In this document: positions 4,758-14,454 of the stretch, one piece after another
Layout: each line of letters opens with the position of its first letter
How positions within the stretch are numbered: position 1 is the stretch's first letter
Source: Sulfitobacter sp. HNIBRBA3233
GTDB lineage: Bacteria > Pseudomonadota > Alphaproteobacteria > Rhodobacterales > Rhodobacteraceae
Assembly: GCF_040149665.1 (NCBI RefSeq)
Contig: NZ_JBEFLP010000001.1
Location: 930,001-994,000 of the forward strand
DNA: 64,000 nucleotides
Direction of reading: 5' to 3'
Translations under genes and position numbers: made by a program
Notes under the pieces: generated by a model
The model's input: only the letters and a program-made list of their open reading frames with translations
What the model was told of the DNA's origin: nothing
Databases searched by the model: none

Positions 4758-4762
4758 TGCGC

Positions 4763-4876
4763 CTCGCCAGCCCAGCGCCCGACTGGTGGGGACCGTTCTG
4801 CGTCGGCTTCGATGTTGCCCTCGGGGCCTGGCTGCTGACGCTCCGCCCGGAACCCGCCGGCGGGGAACCTCGTTGA
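4763..4876 (+). pseudogene. Possible 3' fragment of a lost gene at the IS breakpoint
   Basis: Directly beyond the transposase breakpoint one plus-strand frame stays open to a TGA at 4874-4876 and reads like a membrane-protein tail (PDWWGPFCVGFDVALGAWLL). It has no start of its own and would have been cut by the IS event. I do not recognise the family; it could equally be chance. Confidence 0.25.
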
Positions 4877-4903
4877 AACGATGAGACAGGATAAGAGAGA
4901 CCT

Positions 4904-6106
4904 ATGACGCAAAGCTTCCTCGAAACCTGGCATTCGGCCGCGACCACGGCGCTCGGCCTCTTCTGGACGGCCTTCTGGGCCTTCGGTCTCGGCTACCTGA
5001 TCTCGTCGATGATTCAGGTCTTCGTCACGCGCCAGACCATGCAGAAGCAGATGGGCGAGGCCGGTCCGCGCTCGGTCGCCATGGGCACGTTTTTCGGCTT
5101 CGCCAGCTCGTCGTGCAGCTTCGCGGCGCTGTCTGGCACCCGCGCGCTGTTTGCCAAGGGCGCGGGGCTGGTGCCCTCGCTCGCGTTCCTGCTGGCCTCC
5201 ACCAACCTCGTCGTGGAGCTCGGCATCATCATCGCGATCTTCCTCGGCTGGCAGTTCGTCGTCGGCGAATATGTAGGCGGCCTTCTGCTGATCGGTTTGA
5301 TGTGGTTTGTGATCCGCCTGACCAAGTGCATCGCCCCGGTCGAAGAGGCGCGGCGCACCGCGCAGCAGAGCCAGGGCGACGAGGACGAGGCGGAGGGCGA
5401 CGACGCCTCGTGGCGCGACAAGATCGCCTCGCGGCAGAGCTGGGCCATGGTCGCGCAGCGCTACGTCATGGAATGGATGATGGTCTGGAAGGACGTGACC
5501 GTGGGCTTCACGGTCGCAGGCATCATCGCCGCCTTCGTGCCGCAAAGCTTCTTCGAATGGCTCTTTATCGGCGGCGACGATCCGAACTTCTTCGAGCTTT
5601 TGGCACAGGCTTTGGTCGGCCCGGTCGCGGCCTTCTTCACCTTCATCGGATCGATGGGGAACATCCCGCTCGCGGCCGTTCTCTACGGCAACGGCGTGGC
5701 CTTCGCGGGGATCATGGCGTTCATCTTCTCCGACCTCGTCGTCATCCCCGTGCTGCGGGTCAACGCGCAGTATTACGGGTGGAAGATGGCGCTCTACATT
5801 CTCGGCGTCTTCCTCGTGGTGCTCGTGGCGACGGCGATGCTGCTGCATTACGGGTTCGCGGCCCTCGGCCTGTTGCCCACGGCCGAGCAGGTCCGCACGG
5901 TCATCGACCGCGACTTCTTCGCCCTCGACTATACCTTCTGGCTGAACCTCGTCTTCGGCGCGCTCGGCCTCGCTTTCCTCGCCTGGAAGATCGCCCGATC
6001 CGGCTGGAGCTTCGCCATCGAAGCGGGCGTCGTCGAAAAGGCCCTCTTTGTCCTTGCCATGGCCTCCTACGCGTGGCTCGCGGTCGGTCTCTTCGTCGGC
6101 GGATGA
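4904..6106 (+). CDS. ArsP_1/YraQ-type permease
   Basis: 400-residue polytopic membrane protein with two hydrophobic halves. The first holds FFGFASSSCSFAALSG (about residues 65-80), the second GSMGNIPLAAVLYGNGVAFAGIMAFIF (about 248-274), linked by a charged loop (about residues 150-170, rich in D/E). This is the layout of the permease family (PF03773) that includes the organoarsenical exporter ArsP and YraQ. Family members without the CSCG motif often sit beside metal-handling genes; the transported substrate is not known here. A GAGAG-like ribosome site precedes the ATG. It is convergent with the ArsP-like gene at 6132, only 25 bp away, and its upstream neighbour is an IS scar, so it has probably lost its original operon. 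Confidence 0.8.
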   Translation: MTQSFLETWHSAATTALGLFWTAFWAFGLGYLISSMIQVFVTRQTMQKQMGEAGPRSVAMGTFFGFASSSCSFAALSGTRALFAKGAGLVPSLAFLLASTNLVVELGIIIAIFLGWQFVVGEYVGGLLLIGLMWFVIRLTKCIAPVEEARRTAQQSQGDEDEAEGDDASWRDKIASRQSWAMVAQRYVMEWMMVWKDVTVGFTVAGIIAAFVPQSFFEWLFIGGDDPNFFELLAQALVGPVAAFFTFIGSMGNIPLAAVLYGNGVAFAGIMAFIFSDLVVIPVLRVNAQYYGWKMALYILGVFLVVLVATAMLLHYGFAALGLLPTAEQVRTVIDRDFFALDYTFWLNLVFGALGLAFLAWKIARSGWSFAIEAGVVEKALFVLAMASYAWLAVGLFVGG

Positions 6107-6131
6107 GTGGGGTTGCATCCGTGTTGAGCCT

Positions 6132-7184
6132 TCAGATCATCGTCCAGAGCTGAAACAGAAGGCCTGTCGCAAAGGAGCCGGTCAAAGCGATCCCAAAATA
6201 GAGAAAGAACACCTTTCGCTTCACCATCGCCCAGACCGCAATAGCCGCTGGCAGCGAGGTCACACCCCCTGCGACCAGAAACGCGAGACCTGCGCCCGGG
6301 GCCATGCCTTGCCCGAGAAGGCCACCGACGAGCGGCAGGGCAGCGTAGCCGTTGAGATACGCAGGTACGCCGACCAGGGTTGCGATCGCGATAGGAGCGA
6401 GGCCTGTGCCGCCGAGCGAACGGGCCACCAGATCGGCAGGAAGCCACGCGAGCATCAGGCTTTCCAGCACGAATGCGAGCGTCAGCCATTTGGCGAGAAA
6501 CAGCGTGGTCTTGATCCCCTCGCGTATGAACTTGCTGACACGCTCATCGTCCTGCCAAAACTTCCAGACAACAGGCTTCGCCGTGCGCACTTTTGCACCA
6601 CCGCACCCGCCATTGCCAACGCCCTCGCGCAGTGGATCGGCTAATCCGCCCGCCCTGCTCAGGAGATGGACCACATAGCCGCCGAAGACACCCAGTCCGA
6701 CGGCTGCGAGCGTTTTGGCTACAGCGAACTCGATCCCGAGAACTCCAGTGGTCAGCACAAACATTGAGGGGTCCATGACCGGCGAGGCGAGCCAGAAGGC
6801 CATGACGGCCGAGAGTGGCACACCCATTGCAAGAAGTGCCGCGATCAGCGGGATGACACCACAGGAGCAGAACGGCGACAGGCCTCCTGCGAACGCCGCA
6901 ATCAAAATCATAATTGCGGGCGATCCGGTGAAGGCACGTGCAATCAGAGCGTCAGCACCGGTCGCACCGGCATAGGCGGCGATGCCGATTGAGAGAAACA
7001 GAAACGGCGCGACCTCAAGCAGGTTGCGCGCGGCAAACTCTGCACTGATGGCAGCCTGTCCGGGGGCGAGAACCAACAGGGCGAGCAAGAGACCGGCGAT
7101 GAACAACAAGACCTTCTCCTCGGTCCACAGCCGATGAGCGAGGTCGGTTGCCCATGAGCGGACGCTGAGGGCGAGTTCAGTCAT
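6132..7184 (-). CDS. arsP: ArsP-like permease (organoarsenical efflux)
   Basis: 350 residues, about 8-9 membrane segments in two halves. The first half has the signature FSCSCGV-like block (GGLSPFCSCGVIPLIAALL, about residues 100-118) and LASPVMDPSMF; the second has GVPAYLNGYAALPLVGGLLGQGM. The cysteine pair matches ArsP-type exporters of trivalent organoarsenicals and is functionally important in characterised ArsP (family knowledge). A GNGGCGGAK stretch in the central loop supplies another Cys. It follows the ArsR gene by 54 bp on the same strand, so it is probably the regulated gene of that operon. Alternative: exporter of another soft-metal compound. Confidence 0.82.
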   Translation of the reverse strand: MTELALSVRSWATDLAHRLWTEEKVLLFIAGLLLALLVLAPGQAAISAEFAARNLLEVAPFLFLSIGIAAYAGATGADALIARAFTGSPAIMILIAAFAGGLSPFCSCGVIPLIAALLAMGVPLSAVMAFWLASPVMDPSMFVLTTGVLGIEFAVAKTLAAVGLGVFGGYVVHLLSRAGGLADPLREGVGNGGCGGAKVRTAKPVVWKFWQDDERVSKFIREGIKTTLFLAKWLTLAFVLESLMLAWLPADLVARSLGGTGLAPIAIATLVGVPAYLNGYAALPLVGGLLGQGMAPGAGLAFLVAGGVTSLPAAIAVWAMVKRKVFFLYFGIALTGSFATGLLFQLWTMI

Positions 7185-7238
7185 AGCGATACCCCTAGAT
7201 TAGTAGTTATAAAAAGCAGAGAAAAAGGCCGCGCTTCA

Positions 7239-7553
7239 TCATGCGACGTCCTCCTGTGTAAGGGTGACACCGACGCAGCACTCAGCAGTCAAGAACGATA
7301 CAGTTCTGCGCATCGCGCCGTAATCGACCCGGTTCAAAATCTGGCGACCCTGGCGCTCCTGAATAACCAGCCCGGCATCTACAAGAGCTTTAAGATGATG
7401 CGCGAGTGTAGAAGCCGCCATGTCGATATGCTGACCGATCTCGCCCACGTTCAGGCCTTCGTCCCCGGCCCGAACCAGAAGCCGGAAGATCGCGAGACGA
7501 GTTTCATGCCCTAGGGCGGCCAAAGAGAGAGCGATGGATGCATTTGAATTCAT
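7239..7553 (-). CDS. ArsR/SmtB-family metalloregulator
   Basis: 104 residues from the ATG at 7553; the longer frame up to 7658 would run through the promoter and is rejected. Winged helix-turn-helix: LAALGHETRLAIFRLLVRAG, then the recognition helix MAASTLAHHLKALVDAGLV, then the wing QERQGRQILNRVDY. The alpha-3 CVC metal site of classical ArsR is absent. Instead an adjacent Cys pair lies near the C-terminus (FLTAECCVGVTL), a location used by several divergent As(III)/Sb(III) sensors. It should repress itself and the downstream arsP-like gene and let go on binding the inducer. Its likely operator is the perfect palindrome at 7570-7585. Confidence 0.9.
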   Translation of the reverse strand: MNSNASIALSLAALGHETRLAIFRLLVRAGDEGLNVGEIGQHIDMAASTLAHHLKALVDAGLVIQERQGRQILNRVDYGAMRRTVSFLTAECCVGVTLTQEDVA

Positions 7554-7558
7554 GACAC

Positions 7559-7588
7559 ATATAAAAACTATAAAACTAGTTTTATCAA
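7559..7588 (-). promoter_or_regulatory. arsR-arsP promoter with palindromic operator
   Basis: On the minus strand TTGATA (7588-7583) and TTTATA (7565-7560) are spaced by exactly 17 bp. Between and overlapping them is a perfect 16-bp palindrome, ATAAAACTAGTTTTAT, at 7570-7585. A repressor bound there would cover the promoter spacer. The ATG of the ArsR gene follows 6 bp beyond the -10. Confidence 0.75.
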
Positions 7589-8010
7589 TATAATTTTTTG
7601 GGTGCCTCACCTGCCTGTCTTTTTTTATCAAGGAAAACTGAAGCCGCCATCGGTGCACGTGCGGCGAAGGTCTGCAAAGTCCCGCAAAGCTGATCTTTGA
7701 TCTGAGCGCAGCGGACGACCGCTCTCCGCCCGGTGTCTACAGAATAGCAAAGGTAACGAACGGCCCCCAGCGGACCTTCACCATCCATGGAGATGCTGCT
7801 GTGCGGCCCTTCATTACGGACTTTCGCTGCAACTGCAGAGTCAATTGGTCGACGAATAAACACTTCGCGGATTTTGCTGCCGTTGGTCTTACCGGTGCCG
7901 ACGTATGCTTCCACGTAATGTCATGGTAGTCACGCCTCAGAGATTATGCTGACGCGGTGGAAGCCGCGCCCGTATTGTGAGGGATGTAGACCAGTAATAG
8001 GATTGTGTAA
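7589..8010. other. Intergenic stretch with repeat copy 1; no supported gene
   Basis: Open frames here are short and compositionally unconvincing. The segment 7655-7690 has a GAAGGTCTGC...GCAAAGC pattern of a kind common in dispersed roseobacter intergenic repeats (recalled impression). It contains the 42-bp repeat at 7725-7766. The region upstream of 7600 is AT-rich promoter DNA. Confidence 0.5.
7725..7766. repeat. 42-bp direct repeat, copy 1
   Basis: Matches 11599-11640 at 40 of 42 positions in the same orientation; the core is TGTCTACAGAATAGC followed by an AAGGTAACGAACGGCCC stretch. The two copies bracket the four-gene exported-protein module. Confidence 0.85.
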
Positions 8011-8946
8011 TTACCCGCTCTTCACTGCTCCCTTACGGTCTCTGACATCTCCGTAGAATTGTGATGCTGACGCAAGAATCGACAATATGATCGCCAGAGC
8101 CAGCAGCAGTGGATTTGATATCGCGGCATCAATGAGGTCTGGGCGAACGACCGTTGGCTTGTTCGTGCCAAAGTATCCCAAGTGTAATTCGACATCACCT
8201 GGTCGGGATAGAGCGACGATGTCCATATAGTCTCCCCCTAAAGATGAACCAGAAGTGATATGACCAAATGTCTCCGCAGGGGACTCACCGGACCAAACGG
8301 TGGCTGTACCCCCTCTTACCAATTCACCTGTTTTGATAACCTCCGTCACGTTGGACCGCAGCATGCTGGTTGTGAAGCCAGCCTCCCGAGCTTCCCATCT
8401 TCCACCGGATAAGAAGTTAATCTCTCCATTTCCAATTGGTGTACCGATGGTAACTTGTGCCGCGAAGGTAAGTGCACCAGCCTCCCGCCAAGCTTCTGGG
8501 GACAGGATTATTTTGGTTCCGTCCTGGAATGATGGCATCACATCGTTTTCAACACCGATAACCAACTCGTCTCGTTGAGATACGGTTATCTTCACAGTCA
8601 TTCCATCACGCCACGCAGCAACCAAACCGTCCTGCTTCTCCACGTCATAGAAACGGCGATCACACAGATCATTCGTTTCTTCCTGAGTCAAATCGGGCTG
8701 CGCTTTCAAACGGCAAATTGCTGCATTTGGGATCATCCAAATATTGGAGTTACCGACAAATCTGATGGTTGCCGCAGTGGTCTGGGCTTCGATCAAGAAA
8801 GTGCGCGTCTTACTGAAGGTACTGACGATCATGAAAAACAGCAGGCTACAGATCGCCAAGAGCATTAGCAGCAACCGCATTGCACCAATTAATTTCAATC
8901 GACCGAACATCGACATAAACGACACCTCCCCAATTGAGGTGCTCAT
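8011..8946 (-). CDS. Unknown membrane protein with large periplasmic domain
   Basis: 311 residues. One membrane segment near the N-terminus (about residues 20-42, LIGAMRLLLMLLAICSLLFF), a periplasmic domain of roughly 230 residues, and a second membrane segment near the C-terminus (NPLLLALAIILSILASASQF) before a short basic tail. The start at 8946 overlaps the stop of the upstream gene (8943-8946, ATGA), so both are one transcription unit. The periplasmic part has two cysteines close together (AICRLKAQ...DLCDRR) and a beta-rich stretch; no family recognised. GC is clearly lower than the flanking chromosome, which suggests acquisition. Possibly an anchor or partner for the secreted products of the same module. 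Confidence 0.75.
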   Translation of the reverse strand: MSTSIGEVSFMSMFGRLKLIGAMRLLLMLLAICSLLFFMIVSTFSKTRTFLIEAQTTAATIRFVGNSNIWMIPNAAICRLKAQPDLTQEETNDLCDRRFYDVEKQDGLVAAWRDGMTVKITVSQRDELVIGVENDVMPSFQDGTKIILSPEAWREAGALTFAAQVTIGTPIGNGEINFLSGGRWEAREAGFTTSMLRSNVTEVIKTGELVRGGTATVWSGESPAETFGHITSGSSLGGDYMDIVALSRPGDVELHLGYFGTNKPTVVRPDLIDAAISNPLLLALAIILSILASASQFYGDVRDRKGAVKSG

Positions 8947-9641
8947 CCACCGTCACCAAACCAAAGTTGCGTTATCGAAGGCTTCGCAGGCTTGCCATTT
9001 GAAATCCGGTAGAGCGTCACGGCCACCATACCATTCTGTTCCAGAGGGAGTGCGCAAACAGAATCGAACGAAGACATCGCCCTGTCATTCATCGCTTCGC
9101 ATCTGATAGCTTTGGGATCATCTCCAAGATAGACAAAGACTTCATCTGCCCGGAAGGAATTTACAAGCAATGACAACTCTGTTGTCGCGGTCGCCTCATT
9201 CCAGATCGCAATGGCTGTCTCACCGGGAGAGGACGCACACTCGCCATTCGATATGCTTACAGCCAGATCATTTGGCTCCAGTGTTGCAAGCAAATCCTGA
9301 TATGCTGAAGGGAACGGAAGCACCGCATTGCCACCAGCCCAATCGCTGGGAATATCATATTCATTGGACGCTTCATATAAGCCATCGCCGCTCCGTACTC
9401 TGGTACAGATCGTGCCACCAGCCCAGCCAGCGGGTAAATTGGAAGATAGCTGCAATTCATTCTGTTCTGGTTGGCGTGAACCATGACGCTGGGTGCCGAC
9501 AACCACGACGCCTGAAATTTCTGCTGTATCGCGCAAAATTTCGTTAAACGGGTTGCTCTTCAGGACTAATCTATCGTCTGCTTGGGCTGACAAGGGCATC
9601 ACAGCGAGGCATCCTAAAATGAACATCCGAAAAGCCACCAT
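8943..9641 (-). CDS. Unknown secreted protein
   Basis: 232 residues from the ATG at 9641, which has a good AGGAG site 7 bp upstream; the longer frame starting at 9698 lacks one. A typical signal peptide is visible (MVAFRMFILGCLAVMPLSAQA, written here as positions 1-21 ending SAQA). The mature part has four to six cysteines (TICTRVRS, NGECASS, IRCEAMND, SVCALPL) that could form disulfides. No known domain recognised. It is coupled by ATGA to the membrane protein downstream. Its start overlaps by 23 bp the start of the divergent protease gene. Confidence 0.75.
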   Translation of the reverse strand: MVAFRMFILGCLAVMPLSAQADDRLVLKSNPFNEILRDTAEISGVVVVGTQRHGSRQPEQNELQLSSNLPAGWAGGTICTRVRSGDGLYEASNEYDIPSDWAGGNAVLPFPSAYQDLLATLEPNDLAVSISNGECASSPGETAIAIWNEATATTELSLLVNSFRADEVFVYLGDDPKAIRCEAMNDRAMSSFDSVCALPLEQNGMVAVTLYRISNGKPAKPSITQLWFGDGG

Positions 9642-10698
9642 GCTTTGTCTCCTACGTTTCTCAGCCCTATGTGTAACAGCCCTGCATGCGTCCGTCATTG
9701 GTGTTGTTGCACAAACTGTAAGCGTACAAAATGGTTTGAACGAAAATGGCTTCGGCTGGATGTTTCGATCTGGTGGAACTTGTTATGCCGTGATGCCAAG
9801 ACACGTTGCTGGTCCCCTCCCCCGTGTGACACTCACCTCAGCCGCTCCTGTGGCCAATGGTTCAGGGTCCGTGATCCATCCGTTCTGGCCGGGCTTGGAC
9901 CTATCAATTGCGGTTGTCAGGGGCGGTATCGAAGCACGGTGTACTGAAACGCTTGATCGTCTTGATTTGTCACGGCGGGCAAACAGTGCGGCACGTGCAG
10001 AATTACATCGTCTTGATCCAACAGGCGAAGAAGAACGCATCGCCATCAGCTTGGAGCGCAAAAACTATCTGACGATTGATAGTGAGGTCGCTGCGACCGA
10101 CGCTGAAGTATATCAGGGGACATCAGGTGCATTTGCATTCGTCGGTCAAGAACTAATCGGCATGGCGATCACATCTGATGATCCGAAGCGACTTGTGCTG
10201 ATGAGGTCTGAAGAAATATTGATGAACGTGCGCCGTTACCTGTCCGAACAAGGCAATGCATTTGCTGCCGAAACCGCGCCGGCCCCCGCACAACAGGAAG
10301 GGGGATTTGCCTTGAACCTTGTTAGTGTATCTGCACCGCCGATATCGCCGGAGTTTGATGCACAGAACGTCCTTGGCGATGGTATGTATGTTTTCAGCCC
10401 GCAAAGAAATGCAGAGATCATCTTGCGTGTGGAAAGCGATGATCCGGTTGCCTTATCACGCATCCGGATTATGAGCCCCCAAGACAACGGTTACGCCGTT
10501 CCCCGTCGGGTTCTGATACTCACGGACGCACGATTGGAGGGTGACGGATACAGCGTGTGGACCCGTGGTGAGATCCCGCCAGATGGGAAATTCGATACCG
10601 GGCCGATGGCAATCCGAAATGCCCTTTGGATCAAAGTTATGATCCTGAGTGCATGGGGGAGCGGCGATATCGCTATTGGGGAGATTTCGGCCCAGTAA
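9619..10698 (+). CDS. Predicted secreted trypsin-like protease with discoidin-like C-terminal region
   Basis: 359 residues from the ATG at 9619, preceded by GAGG; an ATG at 9640 has no ribosome site. Signal peptide to about residue 31. The first half has a chymotrypsin-fold triad: GFGWMF...TCYAVMPRHVAG (His62), PGLDLSIAVV (Asp94) and YQGTSGAFAFVGQELIGMAI (Ser169), followed by the usual ALL-type end (EEILMNVRRYL). Residues 211-235 are a linker rich in A, P and Q. Residues about 245-359 look like an F5/8 type C (discoidin) beta sandwich, ending LWIKVMILSAWGSGDIAIGE. I know no named protein with this pair. It is divergent from the secreted-protein gene at 8943 and convergent with the one at 10732. 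The Ser motif is GTSGA rather than GDSGG, as in several bacterial members. A pseudo-enzyme cannot be excluded. Confidence 0.75.
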   Translation: MNIRKATMLCLLRFSALCVTALHASVIGVVAQTVSVQNGLNENGFGWMFRSGGTCYAVMPRHVAGPLPRVTLTSAAPVANGSGSVIHPFWPGLDLSIAVVRGGIEARCTETLDRLDLSRRANSAARAELHRLDPTGEEERIAISLERKNYLTIDSEVAATDAEVYQGTSGAFAFVGQELIGMAITSDDPKRLVLMRSEEILMNVRRYLSEQGNAFAAETAPAPAQQEGGFALNLVSVSAPPISPEFDAQNVLGDGMYVFSPQRNAEIILRVESDDPVALSRIRIMSPQDNGYAVPRRVLILTDARLEGDGYSVWTRGEIPPDGKFDTGPMAIRNALWIKVMILSAWGSGDIAIGEISAQ

Positions 10699-10731
10699 AC
10701 GCGTCTAAAGCACGGTTCTTATACTGCTCAA

Positions 10732-11355
10732 TCAGGGCAGCAATTGGATTGTTGAAGGGAAGCCTCCAGCAGTATTGTAAACCGAGGCAAAACCCTCAAT
10801 CATACCTGCCTCGGAAAGCGAGCCTTGAAGTTTGAAATAGCCACCCGGTGCTGTCGCTTCGACACCCGCGTTCGAGACCTTGAGAAAGCAATCGTTCGCA
10901 GATCCACCTACGAAAAGATAACATTTCTTTTCGGTATCATAATCACCTACGGCATATGTGACACCGGCAACTCCTTCTGGCGAGACAGCAGCACCAGCTT
11001 CTTTCATGCTACTCTCATACCAACTGCTTTCGGCTGCTGATCCATCGACAATGATTGAAATTGAAGGCCCTGTTGCAAGATATCCCTCAAGTGTCTTCTG
11101 CCTTACATCCGGATCTGTCGACAGAAAGCCGGCCCGCGCGGCCATCGCGACCAGGCTGGAATCTTTGGTTCCCATCATGATCTCTATCGCTGCTAACTGA
11201 CGTGCCGGATCAGGATCGTTCAAAAGCTCTGCATAAGGCCCGCTATTCTCAACTTTCTTATTCACCATAGCCAAGATCTCGTCCGGCGTAAGCACTTGGG
11301 CAGAAGCAAGGTTGGTTGAGGCCATGAGCAATAAGAAAGCAACGGTTCGAAGCAT
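10732..11355 (-). CDS. Unknown secreted protein with HEAT-like N-terminal repeats
   Basis: 207 residues with a clear signal peptide (MLRTVAFLLLMASTNLASAQ). After it comes a helical stretch, DPDPARQLAAIEIMMGTKD then STDPDVRQKTLEGYLATG, which looks like two HEAT/armadillo-type repeats (DPDxRxxAxxxL). The last 110 residues are beta-rich with two cysteines (KKCYLFVGG, NDCFLKV). No family name can be given. It ends 33 bp from the stop of the protease gene, facing it, and shares the lower GC of the module. It may act on the same periplasmic target as the protease, but that is only context. Confidence 0.7.
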   Translation of the reverse strand: MLRTVAFLLLMASTNLASAQVLTPDEILAMVNKKVENSGPYAELLNDPDPARQLAAIEIMMGTKDSSLVAMAARAGFLSTDPDVRQKTLEGYLATGPSISIIVDGSAAESSWYESSMKEAGAAVSPEGVAGVTYAVGDYDTEKKCYLFVGGSANDCFLKVSNAGVEATAPGGYFKLQGSLSEAGMIEGFASVYNTAGGFPSTIQLLP

Positions 11356-11598
11356 ATGGCTGTAATCCTTTTACGGTTCTGTCCAAATTGATTTGCCCCA
11401 ATAATTCCTTCAAACGGAAGTGCGCACAAGTACCAATCCAGACTGTCCCTTCTCATTTGGACACTTTTCCAAAGGCTGCTATCTGTGCGCATCCGACATT
11501 CGCATGCAGTGCAGCATGGGGCCTCGGTCTGCTACCGCCTGAATGGGCGCTTTTGCAATTCTGGCAAAGAACCTTCGCAACTGCAGGGAAATCCGGTT

Positions 11599-11640
11599 TC
11601 CGCCCGTTGTCTACAGAATAGCCAAGGTAACGAACGGCCC
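11599..11640. repeat. 42-bp direct repeat, copy 2
   Basis: Same sequence and orientation as 7725-7766 with two mismatches. Similarity outside the core is weak, so the copies are old or were exchanged by recombination. Confidence 0.85.
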
Positions 11641-11683
11641 ATAGCAGACGTTGCTCGGCGGCGCAGCGAACGGTAGTTTCGAG

Positions 11684-11760: not shown

Positions 11761-13236
11761 CTGTCAGCACTCCAGCGCCTCCTCACTGAAGTGGATGCGG
11801 GCCACGTCGACACGGTCGTGGTCTACAAGATCGACCGGCTGACACGCTCACTCATGGACTTCGCAAAGCTGGTGGAGCGGGCGGACAAGGCAAACTGCTC
11901 ATTCGTCTCGGTCATCCAGGCTTTCAACACCTCGACCTCGATGGGCTGACTGACGCTCAACGTCCTGCTGTCCTTCGCCCAGTTCGAACGCGAGGTCACG
12001 GCTGAGCGCATTCGCGACAAGATCGCCGCCTCCAAGAAGAAGGGGATGTGGATGGGCGGATTGGTTCCTCTCGGCTACGACCCGCACCCTGATGCTGAGA
12101 TCCGCAGCCTCGTGGTCAACCCGATCGAGGACGAGACTGTGACCGCGCTGTTCCATCTCTACGACACATTCGGCGCTCTCGGTGCAGTTGCCCGCGAGGC
12201 AGATCGCCTCCGCCTGCGGTCGAAGCGCCGCATCGACAAGGCCGGCAATCAGACAGGTGATCGCCGGTTCAGCAATGGCCAGATCCATCACCTGCTGCGC
12301 AATCCCCTCTACATCGGCCAGATCCGTCACAAAGACCAGCTCTGGCACGGGCAACATCCTCCGATCGTGGGTCATGACCTTCGGACCCGCGTCCAGGTAC
12401 GGCTCGATGCCGCTTCCCGGAGGGGCCGCAGCCAGTCGACCTTGGGCACCCCTCCCACTGCCATGCTGGCCGGGAAGCTGCGTGATGAGTGCGGTGACCG
12501 CCTCACCCCCACACATCGCGTCAAGGGCAGTCGGCGCCATCGCTACTATGTCTCCAACCGCCTGATCGCAGGCGGCGTCGATCCTACTGGTTGGCGCTTG
12601 CCCGCGGCCAGCCTCGAGCAGTCAATCGCTGCCGGTCTTGTAAATCACCTTCAGACGCAAGCGCAAACGCATGCCCTGCTGAGCGAGCCGGATGCCAGCA
12701 TCGCCGAGGCGCTTCTGGCGCGCGTCATGCTATTGACCGATCAACTCCGTGCGCACCCCGTCGAAGCCGCCGCCCTCATCACCGAGGTCAGGCTCATGCG
12801 CACCTCCCTCCGCATCACCTGCGGCTCAGATCCGTTGGCCGATCGGATCGGGGTCCAATCCGATAATCTTGCCCCCGCCGCCCTCGCCTTCGACGCGCCC
12901 TTCTCGCTGCGTCGCCGGGGCGTCGAAACCCGAAGCGTCAGCGGTGCTCTCACTGCCGCTCGAGATCCGACATTGCTGAAGAACCTCTCAGCCGCCCATG
13001 GCTGGATAAGGTCGCTGCTCGTCGGAACCCCAATCTCGGCGATCAACCCGAAAACCGGCCATGCCGAGTCCCATATCCGCACACGCTCCCAGCTGGCCTT
13101 CCTATCTCCCCGGCTGCAGGCCGAGATCCTCGCCGGCAGCCTGTCACCGGACCTGACCCTTAAGCGCCTGCTCGCGCGGTCTCTCCCGCTCGATTGGGAT
13201 GAACAGGAAAAGCTCTGCGGCCTTCCTCCCCTCTGA
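11761..13236 (+). pseudogene. Large serine recombinase (resolvase/invertase type), inactivated
   Basis: The plus frame from 11761 reads ALQRLLTEVDAGHVDTVVVYKIDRLTRS, the middle of the resolvase catalytic domain, then FVSVIQAFNTSTSMG, a TGA at 11947-11949, then LTLNVLLSFAQFEREVTAER and a full recombinase domain, zinc-ribbon-like region and C-terminus up to 13236. The first 60-70 residues, with the nucleophilic serine, are gone. The stop sits where intact relatives have Arg (SMGRLTLN), which fits a CGA-to-TGA change. An ATG at 12046 could express the DNA-binding part alone (396 residues). Site-specific recombinases of this type move mobile islands, so this probably records how the neighbouring DNA arrived. 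Confidence 0.9.
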
Positions 13237-13575
13237 GCGCAACTAAAAGGGCAGCAACCATTTTACCGGTCCTGAGACCAAGACCAGCTCTCTACATGCA
13301 TTGAGGCTCTCGCAATTGCGTTCGCAGGTTCACTTCGCCGCAATACGCCAGGTTCCAAACCCCAGACCCGATGCAAAATTCCCTGTAGATTCCCTGTTAA
13401 TGGCACCAGCGCAGAAAACCCGCTCTGCGATTTTTGGCCCGAGAGACGGGCCGCAGGAATGCCCCGATCCGCCGCTCCCAAGCGCGTCTCTATGGACGAA
13501 CACGCGGCGCAAACCGCCGAAAGTGCGGGCAGAAATCGCGGAAACATCAATTTATGGGGAACACCCAGAGGTGCG
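13237..13575. other. Gene-free stretch between recombinase relic and tRNA-Ser
   Basis: No ORF with a start site and plausible composition. A tandem motif ATTCCCTGT occurs twice with 11-bp period at 13378-13386 and 13389-13397. The rest appears to be decayed DNA. Confidence 0.5.
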
Positions 13576-13665
13576 TGGCGGACAGACAGGGATTCGAACC
13601 CTGGAGACGGTCTCCCGCCTACACACTTTCCAGGCGTGCGCCTTCGACCACTCGGCCACCTGTCC
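13576..13665 (-). tRNA. tRNA-Ser (GGA)
   Basis: 90 nt including an encoded CCA. Acceptor GGACAG pairs with CTGTCC, the anticodon loop reads CCTGGAAAG (anticodon GGA), a long variable arm of class II tRNA is present (GGCGGGAGACCGTCTCC), and the T arm is GGGTTCGAATCCC. The serine tRNA lies at the right border of the accessory region, though no duplicated tRNA end was found on the left side. Confidence 0.95.
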
Positions 13666-13734: not shown

Positions 13735-14454
13735 TCAGCTTTCCAGATGGAGGTACATACGCCTGTTCATGCGGCCTTTTTTCTCGATCTTTCCCAGCCG
13801 CACATGTCCGATTTCGCCCGTCCGTGCAACGTGGGTGCCGCCGCAGGGTTGAAGATCGATCCAGTCTTGCTCTTCGCCGATGCGCACCAGCCTGATGTCT
13901 CCGCTGCCCCGCGGCGGCGCGACCGCCATCGTCTTGACCAGCTCCGGTGCCGCGTCGAGTTCGGCCTCCGTGATCCAGCCGTCGGTCACGCGGGCGTCAA
14001 GGTCGATATAGGCGTTCAGCGCCGCCTCAAGTTCCTCACGGTCCTGTGGCGCGTCGGGCATGTTGAAATCCAGCCGCCCGTGCGCCGCCGAAATCGCCCC
14101 GCCGGTAACACCGAAGGGCACCACAACCGACAGAAGGTGCAGCGCGGTGTGCACGCGCATGTGCCGGTGCCTGCGGTCCCAGTCGAGCGTTTGGCGCAGG
14201 TAGGTTCCCGCATGGGGCAAGGGGCGCGGCTCTGCCGGGACCAGAACGATATCGTCGCCTTCCCCCTTAACCGCCGTCGCGATGCTCAGCCGGTTGCCGT
14301 CCCATTCGACCCAGCCGCTGTCACCGGGCTGTCCGCCGCCCTTGGGATAGAAGATCGTCGACTCCAGCACGATACCGCCTTCGGGCGTCAGCGCCTTGAC
14401 CCGGCCGTCGGCATCGCGCCGGTACGGGTCATCGCGAAACAGCATCGCCGTCAC
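13735..14454 (-). CDS. alaX: Alanyl-tRNA editing protein AlaX
   Basis: 239 residues homologous to the editing domain of alanyl-tRNA synthetase. The zinc ligands are visible: HMRVHTALHLL (HxxxH, about residues 98-108) and PCGGTHVARTGEIG (CxxxH, about 201-214). STIFYPKGGGQPGDSG is the conserved N-terminal loop. It hydrolyses Ser-tRNA(Ala) or Gly-tRNA(Ala) in trans and so limits mistranslation. The start overlaps the stop of the mechanosensitive channel gene by 4 bp (14451-14454), so it is the last gene of the cysK-mscS-alaX run. Confidence 0.93.
   Translation of the reverse strand: MTAMLFRDDPYRRDADGRVKALTPEGGIVLESTIFYPKGGGQPGDSGWVEWDGNRLSIATAVKGEGDDIVLVPAEPRPLPHAGTYLRQTLDWDRRHRHMRVHTALHLLSVVVPFGVTGGAISAAHGRLDFNMPDAPQDREELEAALNAYIDLDARVTDGWITEAELDAAPELVKTMAVAPPRGSGDIRLVRIGEEQDWIDLQPCGGTHVARTGEIGHVRLGKIEKKGRMNRRMYLHLES

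Follow-up and report, generated by a model that had tools for sequence, protein, structure and literature searches.

A mobile four-gene module with a predicted exported trypsin-fold protease in Sulfitobacter and other bacteria: a candidate defence cassette of the cell envelope

Among the bacterial immune systems described to date, most operate within the cytoplasm or at its inner face. Here, we analyze a module of four genes, P1 to P4, at positions 8011..11355 of a 64,000-nucleotide stretch from Sulfitobacter sp. HNIBRBA3233 (contig NZ_JBEFLP010000001.1, positions 930,001 to 994,000; this whole stretch is referred to as the window). P3 is a predicted secreted serine protease, and all four products look exported or membrane-anchored. 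It is nearly certain that the four genes form one mobile unit with the predicted structural parts described below. Tentatively, and as one possibility among those weighed below, we propose that the module is a proteolytic cassette located at the envelope, with a protective role in defence or superinfection exclusion.

The closest described relatives of P3 are HtrA/DegS-type periplasmic serine proteases (S1C), which have a secreted trypsin-fold domain with a His-Asp-Ser triad, as does P3. They differ from P3 at the C-terminus: neither the structure model nor a Pfam match revealed the PDZ domain expected there for a member of the HtrA family, and residues 228-359 are modelled as a discoidin/CBM32-like domain instead. 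P3 also has three companion families and is mobile. RsgI9 is part of an anti-sigma factor. Its S1C-NTF2 ectodomain (Clostridium thermocellum) combines a protease-like extracytoplasmic domain with a second domain and is the third-ranked Foldseek match of P3. However, no sigma or anti-sigma gene is common to the 15 module sources for which neighbouring genes were compared; a sigma-FecR pair was seen near a single locus (L027).

Trypsin-like proteases also recur in immune loci. In the Hachiman/AVAST nuclease-trypsin pairs, as presented in the main text of PMC12799240, the protease forms fusions with defence enzymes, activates a nuclease and has a co-evolving partner; the terms signal peptide and periplasm are absent from that main text. 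In contrast, the four proteins of our module look exported, and no nuclease is common to its loci. Conflict systems dependent on nucleoside triphosphates (NTP), insofar as the accessible text of PMC7159879 covers them, likewise combine a trypsin-like peptidase with dedicated co-occurring families (trypsin/Trypco), some with membrane segments. The shared unit of our module differs in having no NTPase, and P1 to P4 do not match the vWA, EAD or Trypco profiles. Finally, the Tha/Ith prophage immunity system, going by the accessible text of PMC11087260, is an immunity cassette carried by phages, and one of its genes lies antisense inside an operon. Unlike this system, P1 to P4 contain neither HEPN nor another known family, and co-transcription of the module is putative. 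A description of the four-gene module was not found among the open-access literature matches listed, in line with the initial annotation, which knew of no described system of this composition. We rate the four-component system as new and the single domains of P3 as known folds. None of the four proteins matched Pfam or NCBIfam up to an E-value of 1, and the best match in sequence searches of solved structures had an E-value of 0.006.

The co-occurrence of the four families was examined by iterative profile search in 39 sources, a count which omits L029, L036 and L037 as duplicates of L014, L025 and L069. All four families were found in 37 of these. The two remaining sources are L021, a viral contig of 4.6 kb on which P3 and only a fragment of P4 were found, and L083 (genome G1127), a marginal match with none of the families, which was rejected as a module locus. 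Since L066 equals L026 in all four genes, the 37 complete loci reduce to 36 for the tree, the correlations and the triad. The loci had been collected through P3, so that searching in the reverse direction, from P1, P2 and P4, is the fairer test. Among 145 related genomes (own genome counted), P3 matched 9, P1 8, P2 10 and P4 11, and these sets are nested, apart from one weak P4-only match (G137, E-value 3.2e-4). The sole P3 genome missed by the P1 search, G062, holds P1 in its locus (L019) according to a refined profile, and the additional genome G128 holds all four families (L081). The initial annotation had left room for the four genes never co-occurring elsewhere; this is dispelled, as the reverse searches match nearly the same genomes. 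Profile searches, again with the own genome counted, gave matches in 16 of 394 genomes from the family, 7 of 385 from the class (including the rejected G1127) and 2 of 398 from the phylum. Within the genus, P3 matched five genomes besides the own one (of an estimated 60 or so). The own genome carries a second complete, strongly diverged module (L020, G000:C2:232000-251900, positions 7579-11356), the P3 of which is 27% identical.

Pairwise identities of the four families are correlated across the 36 loci (0.77-0.89), which stems partly from the shared ancestry of the loci. The ratio of nonsynonymous to synonymous substitution rates (dN/dS) in the closest locus pair (L013, L025) is 0.18 for P1, 0.20 for P2, 0.19 for P3 and 0.08 for P4, with the dS of P4 near saturation even in this pair. 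Two pairs of greater divergence gave values of 0.14-0.37, at dS values above 1 and thus near saturation. A chance cluster of unrelated open reading frames (ORFs), or a set of decaying genes, might be suggested by the low GC (guanine plus cytosine) content and the flanking remnants in the window. This is extremely improbable: it is refuted by the co-occurrence of four families in 37 of 39 sources and by a catalytic triad that is intact in 36 of 36 loci, and purifying selection speaks against it as well.

P3 (9619..10698, plus strand) is predicted to be a secreted trypsin-fold serine protease with a C-terminal discoidin/CBM32-like domain. His62, Asp94 and Ser169, together with Cys55 and Cys108, are invariant in the 36 aligned loci and are also kept in the viral-contig loci L089 and L021. 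The residue numbering agrees with a start at 9619; a further in-frame ATG is at 9640. An AlphaFold2 model (m5b40559e5169) has a mean predicted local distance difference test (pLDDT) value of 85.3 and a predicted template modelling (pTM) score of 0.57. Both domains appear well formed in the model, while their relative placement is unsure. The N-terminal domain shows the double beta-barrel fold of the S1/PA clan, and Foldseek matched it to MamO, DegS, AlgW, DegP and the S1C domain of RsgI9 (for MamO and DegS, E-values of about 1e-6 and TM scores by target of 0.66-0.72). Residues 228-359 have the jelly-roll fold of discoidin domains in the model and matched CBM32, muskelin discoidin and IFT25, with single-domain TM scores by target of about 0.6-0.8. 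The protease with a complete triad and the discoidin-like C-terminal region, both read from the sequence in the initial annotation, are thus borne out by the predicted structure, for which the lack of a protease fold had been the alternative outcome. At the level of sequence profiles, Pfam Trypsin_2 matched one of 14 P3 members at an E-value of 0.1 or less (1.8e-5), and F5_F8_type_C matched none of the 14 at this threshold. Of the two P3 domains, the discoidin domain is the more variable (mean pairwise identity 0.26 vs 0.325 for the protease domain). From the triad, the model and the low dN/dS, P3 is a predicted active enzyme. In L069, P3 is followed in another frame (8653-8772) by a further short stretch that matches the end of the P3 profile; the discoidin end may have been partially duplicated there.

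P1 (8011..8946, minus strand) is a predicted membrane protein with two anchors and an extracytoplasmic beta-rich domain. Its AlphaFold2 model (pLDDT 84.8, pTM 0.76) has long helices at residues 3-34 and 269-300, as expected for the two-anchor protein proposed initially. The model has no clear match among solved structures: the best match in the PDB had an E-value of 0.0087 and a probability of 0.18, and none was found at an E-value of 0.001 or less. P2 (8943..9641, minus strand; alternative start upstream at 9698) is a putative secreted protein, and its description as cysteine-containing holds in that C79, C135, C181 and C196 are invariant in an alignment of 11 members. P4 (10732..11355, minus strand) is a putative secreted protein whose helical N-terminus may be HEAT-like; in its C-terminal region, C145 and C156 are invariant in 12 members. 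The HEAT-like repeats ascribed to it receive weak support from Pfam HEAT matches in three of 12 members (best E-value 0.0066). The four ORFs are located as stated in the initial annotation. Hydrophobic N-terminal leaders or anchors, in keeping with the signal peptides or anchors noted there, were recognized by eye in all four sequences and, for P1, agree with the model helices. No credible homology was found between P1 and P2, or between P2 and P4, where the alignment covered chiefly the signal peptides.

The nearest folds of the protease domain (DegS, AlgW, MamO and the S1C domain of RsgI9) also invite a reading as an envelope-stress or ligand sensor that acts by DegS-like regulated proteolysis. 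The discoidin domain would sense a polysaccharide or a misfolded protein, and P3 would cleave P1 or another membrane protein. This is consistent with the position of the P1 extracytoplasmic domain between two membrane helices and with a peptidoglycan (PG)-binding protein encoded after P1 in L019, L020 and L072. However, a conserved cytoplasmic regulator was not seen in the 15 sources compared, and the patchy, mobile distribution is unlike that of core stress pathways. We consider a sensor of this kind rather unlikely.

Returning to the proposed defence cassette, its mobile and phage contexts make defence more likely than could be known from the window. Relatives on plasmids were found in 10 records from Tistrella, Cereibacter and Paracoccus, seven of which are Cereibacter sphaeroides plasmids of 105-107 kb. 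Four of these seven were opened. Plasmid pC of C. sphaeroides 2.4.1, a laboratory model, carries all four genes intact and identical to those of strain CH10, with the products annotated merely as hypothetical proteins. With a complete module in this strain, its role is directly testable. Lower identities among three C. sphaeroides matches (H6-H8) at first resembled allelic change, but strain-level hypervariation was rejected. When the module genes of H6 and H8 are compared with those of H3, the matches are fragmented and shifted (P3 92% and 86%), whereas those of H4 (2.4.1) are identical, and the divergence of H6 and H8 was treated as a probable assembly error.

Several loci adjoin mobility or defence genes. 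L015 adjoins genes for TniA, TniB and TniQ. L012 has a type III restriction-modification operon, which includes an AlbA-type ATPase, on one side and a tyrosine integrase on the other. A relaxase is encoded near L069 and a transposase near L073. The distribution of the module is patchy, with scattered occurrences in the host genus. On the P3 tree, five changes of host genus are required, each forced by well-supported branches, and a Tistrella pair (L025, named as such, and L013, assigned by shared flanks) falls within a supported group of 16 rows that also includes roseobacters. For these two reasons, horizontal transfer of the module is likely.

Phage-like viral contigs (free phages or prophages) carry the module as well, in whole or in part, as would be expected of superinfection-exclusion or phage-borne defence genes. 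The viral contig IMGVR_UViG_3300026613_000166 (L089) has a complete module among tail genes; upstream of it are genes for head, connector and tail proteins, and downstream are those for the tape measure and tail assembly. On contig L021, where the module is partial, P3 and the P4 fragment are about 2 kb from a large terminase gene. In L089, the start of the tape-measure gene seems to recur in a similar version on either side of the module (9624-9668 and 13777-13821), as if this gene had been split or duplicated by an insertion.

A complete module in a phage tail cluster, with products that all look exported, also fits a niche- or competitor-directed effector acquired by lysogenic conversion. 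The protease would attack proteins of neighbours, predators or surfaces, and P4 or P2 would be the inhibitor that spares the own cell. P4 is present in two or three copies in six of the 37 loci, as immunity proteins can be, but it is under strong purifying selection. In addition, the membrane-anchored P1 is retained in 37 of 39 sources, and no secretion-system or toxin gene is linked across loci in listings read by eye. An effector function is unlikely on this evidence.

No fifth conserved gene is common to the 15 sources, if generic ABC ATPases and genes shared by small subsets are set aside; neighbours of the later loci were read by eye only. This bears on a further possibility, namely that a trypsin-fold protease with accessory secreted proteins matures one particular surface or exported protein. 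Candidate substrates would be an RTX-repeat protein near L018, with relatives near L014 and L020, or the product of a 1,607-residue ORF without Pfam match that adjoins L030. As no substrate gene is common to the 15 sources, such a maturation protease is improbable. Some neighbours are worth recording for single loci or subclades. A low-complexity PG-binding protein and a secreted 456-residue family accompany the module in one subclade (L019, 12423-15215; L020, about 4761-7430; L072, about 5015-7564). A bacterial alpha-2-macroglobulin with a PAN domain, from a protease-trap family, adjoins P4 in the single case of L074 (1431-6887). In L026, on a Cereibacter plasmid, a caspase-family gene and two small genes are downstream of P1 (5488-7933).

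We favour a protective role at the envelope because of the phage carriage, the patchy distribution, the mobile and occasional defence neighbours, and the invariant active site. We infer complex formation, the trigger, the substrate and the protective role itself as follows. From its topology, P1 would anchor a protease complex in the inner membrane, in which P3 is the putative catalytic unit. The discoidin-like domain of P3 may bind a ligand, e.g., a glycan or another envelope component, and P2 and P4 might serve as adaptor and regulator. The complex would be triggered when the envelope is challenged, most likely by a phage during adsorption or injection and possibly by the effector of a competitor. 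The protease would then be unleashed on an extracytoplasmic target, so that the invader is blocked or the cell disabled. If true, defence or sensing at the envelope would have a distinct layer in a conserved, mobile protease module with all of its parts exported. One may go further and speculate that the module represents a wholly extracytoplasmic class of immunity, a membrane-tethered trypsin-fold complex that senses glycans or particles, is spread by plasmids, transposons and phages, and has a nested antisense layout, often with a shared CATG. Such immunity would loosely resemble a one-step complement cascade. This wider idea is doubtful.

Several observations weigh against a role in defence. 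P1 to P4 matched no listed defence component in PADLOC 2023, where the sole match was a chance-level HEAT match of P4 (E-value 0.091), and nothing in PHROGs at an E-value of 0.01; no match in either collection is credible. Phage carriage is rare, because P3 matched none of 50,697 annotated phage records and scans of IMG/VR gave only the two contigs described above, and it equally fits lysogenic conversion without defence. An obvious defence or mobility gene is absent next to many loci, according to listings read by eye. A signature of an arms race was not found: the discoidin domain is the less conserved part of P3, yet the duplicated P4 has the lowest dN/dS in three pairs.

The gene layout is compact. 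With arrowheads for direction relative to the P3 strand, it is <P1 <P2 P3> <P4 (type A) in 32 of the 37 loci, 31 of which come from the automatic table; L027 was added upon reading its annotation, as its row differs merely by an over-long ORF. Three loci have P2> P1> P3> <P4, one has P4> <P1 <P2 P3>, and one (L082) has the co-directional order P3> P4> P2> P1>. As four gene orders were seen, the set of four genes persists through rearrangement. The module of L082 is flanked by helicase ORFs (7112-8293 and 12851-13285), both of which match the same part of helicase profiles. Read from the other strand, type A is P4>(<P3)P2>P1>, i.e., an opposite gene is nested between co-oriented genes, which is the layout of noncontiguous operons. 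It is possible that P4, P2 and P1 form such an operon around the antisense P3. Nested antisense layouts are known, e.g., for the Tha prophage immunity locus, going by the accessible text of PMC11087260 and PMC7154746. The stop codons of the convergent P3 and P4 are at most 20 nucleotides apart in 29 of the 32 type-A loci, which leaves little space for a terminator; the window, with 33 nucleotides, is one of three exceptions. Counts of terminator-like sites (five vs a shuffle mean of 3.7) and promoter matches (one vs 3.3) were uninformative. The compact antisense layout makes the module a natural case for studies of overlapping transcription.

In the window, the start of P1 overlaps the stop of P2 by four nucleotides (ATGA), and a CATG at 9639..9642 provides in-frame ATG codons for P2 (minus strand) and P3 (plus strand), so that head-to-head start codons overlap. 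Across 33 loci, the median head-to-head gap between P2 and P3 is -2 nucleotides by automatic start choice, which is unreliable for L020 and L027. The phase of the reading frames permits a shared CATG in 25 of these, and a CATG with plausible signal peptides on both strands is present in 15 of 33, including the window and L066 (read by eye; L070 and L074 have a CATG but were excluded). Both counts are inflated by shared ancestry. The phage locus L089 also has this arrangement. For comparison, gaps of 164-1253 nucleotides separate the genes of nine divergent pairs in two related records, a hand count from incomplete gene tables for two 50-kb stretches.

The initial annotation placed the module in a low-GC island between repeats. 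A pair of 60-nucleotide direct repeats (7719..7778 and 11593..11652, 87% identical) does flank it; they are dispersed repeats, and their role as insertion ends was rejected. Since similar stretches occur at three further places in the genome, the repeats by themselves mark no insertion. The low GC content applies to this region (51.2% vs 62.1% for the window). It is not a general trait of the module: 28 of 35 loci have a lower GC content in the module than in its flanks, and the difference averages only -2.3 points. Repeats and low GC are thus weak evidence. Adjoining the module is an apparently broken serine recombinase region (11767..13236, plus strand). It comprises a 396-residue ORF (12046-13236; Pfam Recombinase, E-value 1.9e-8) and a stretch (11767-12044) that resembles a recombinase remnant by eye and matches DNA at another place in the genome at 77%. 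Just past it is a gene for tRNA-Ser (13576-13665), a possible island boundary. To the left of the module (4904-7658) are two permease-like genes and a gene for an ArsR-type regulator, named by eye.

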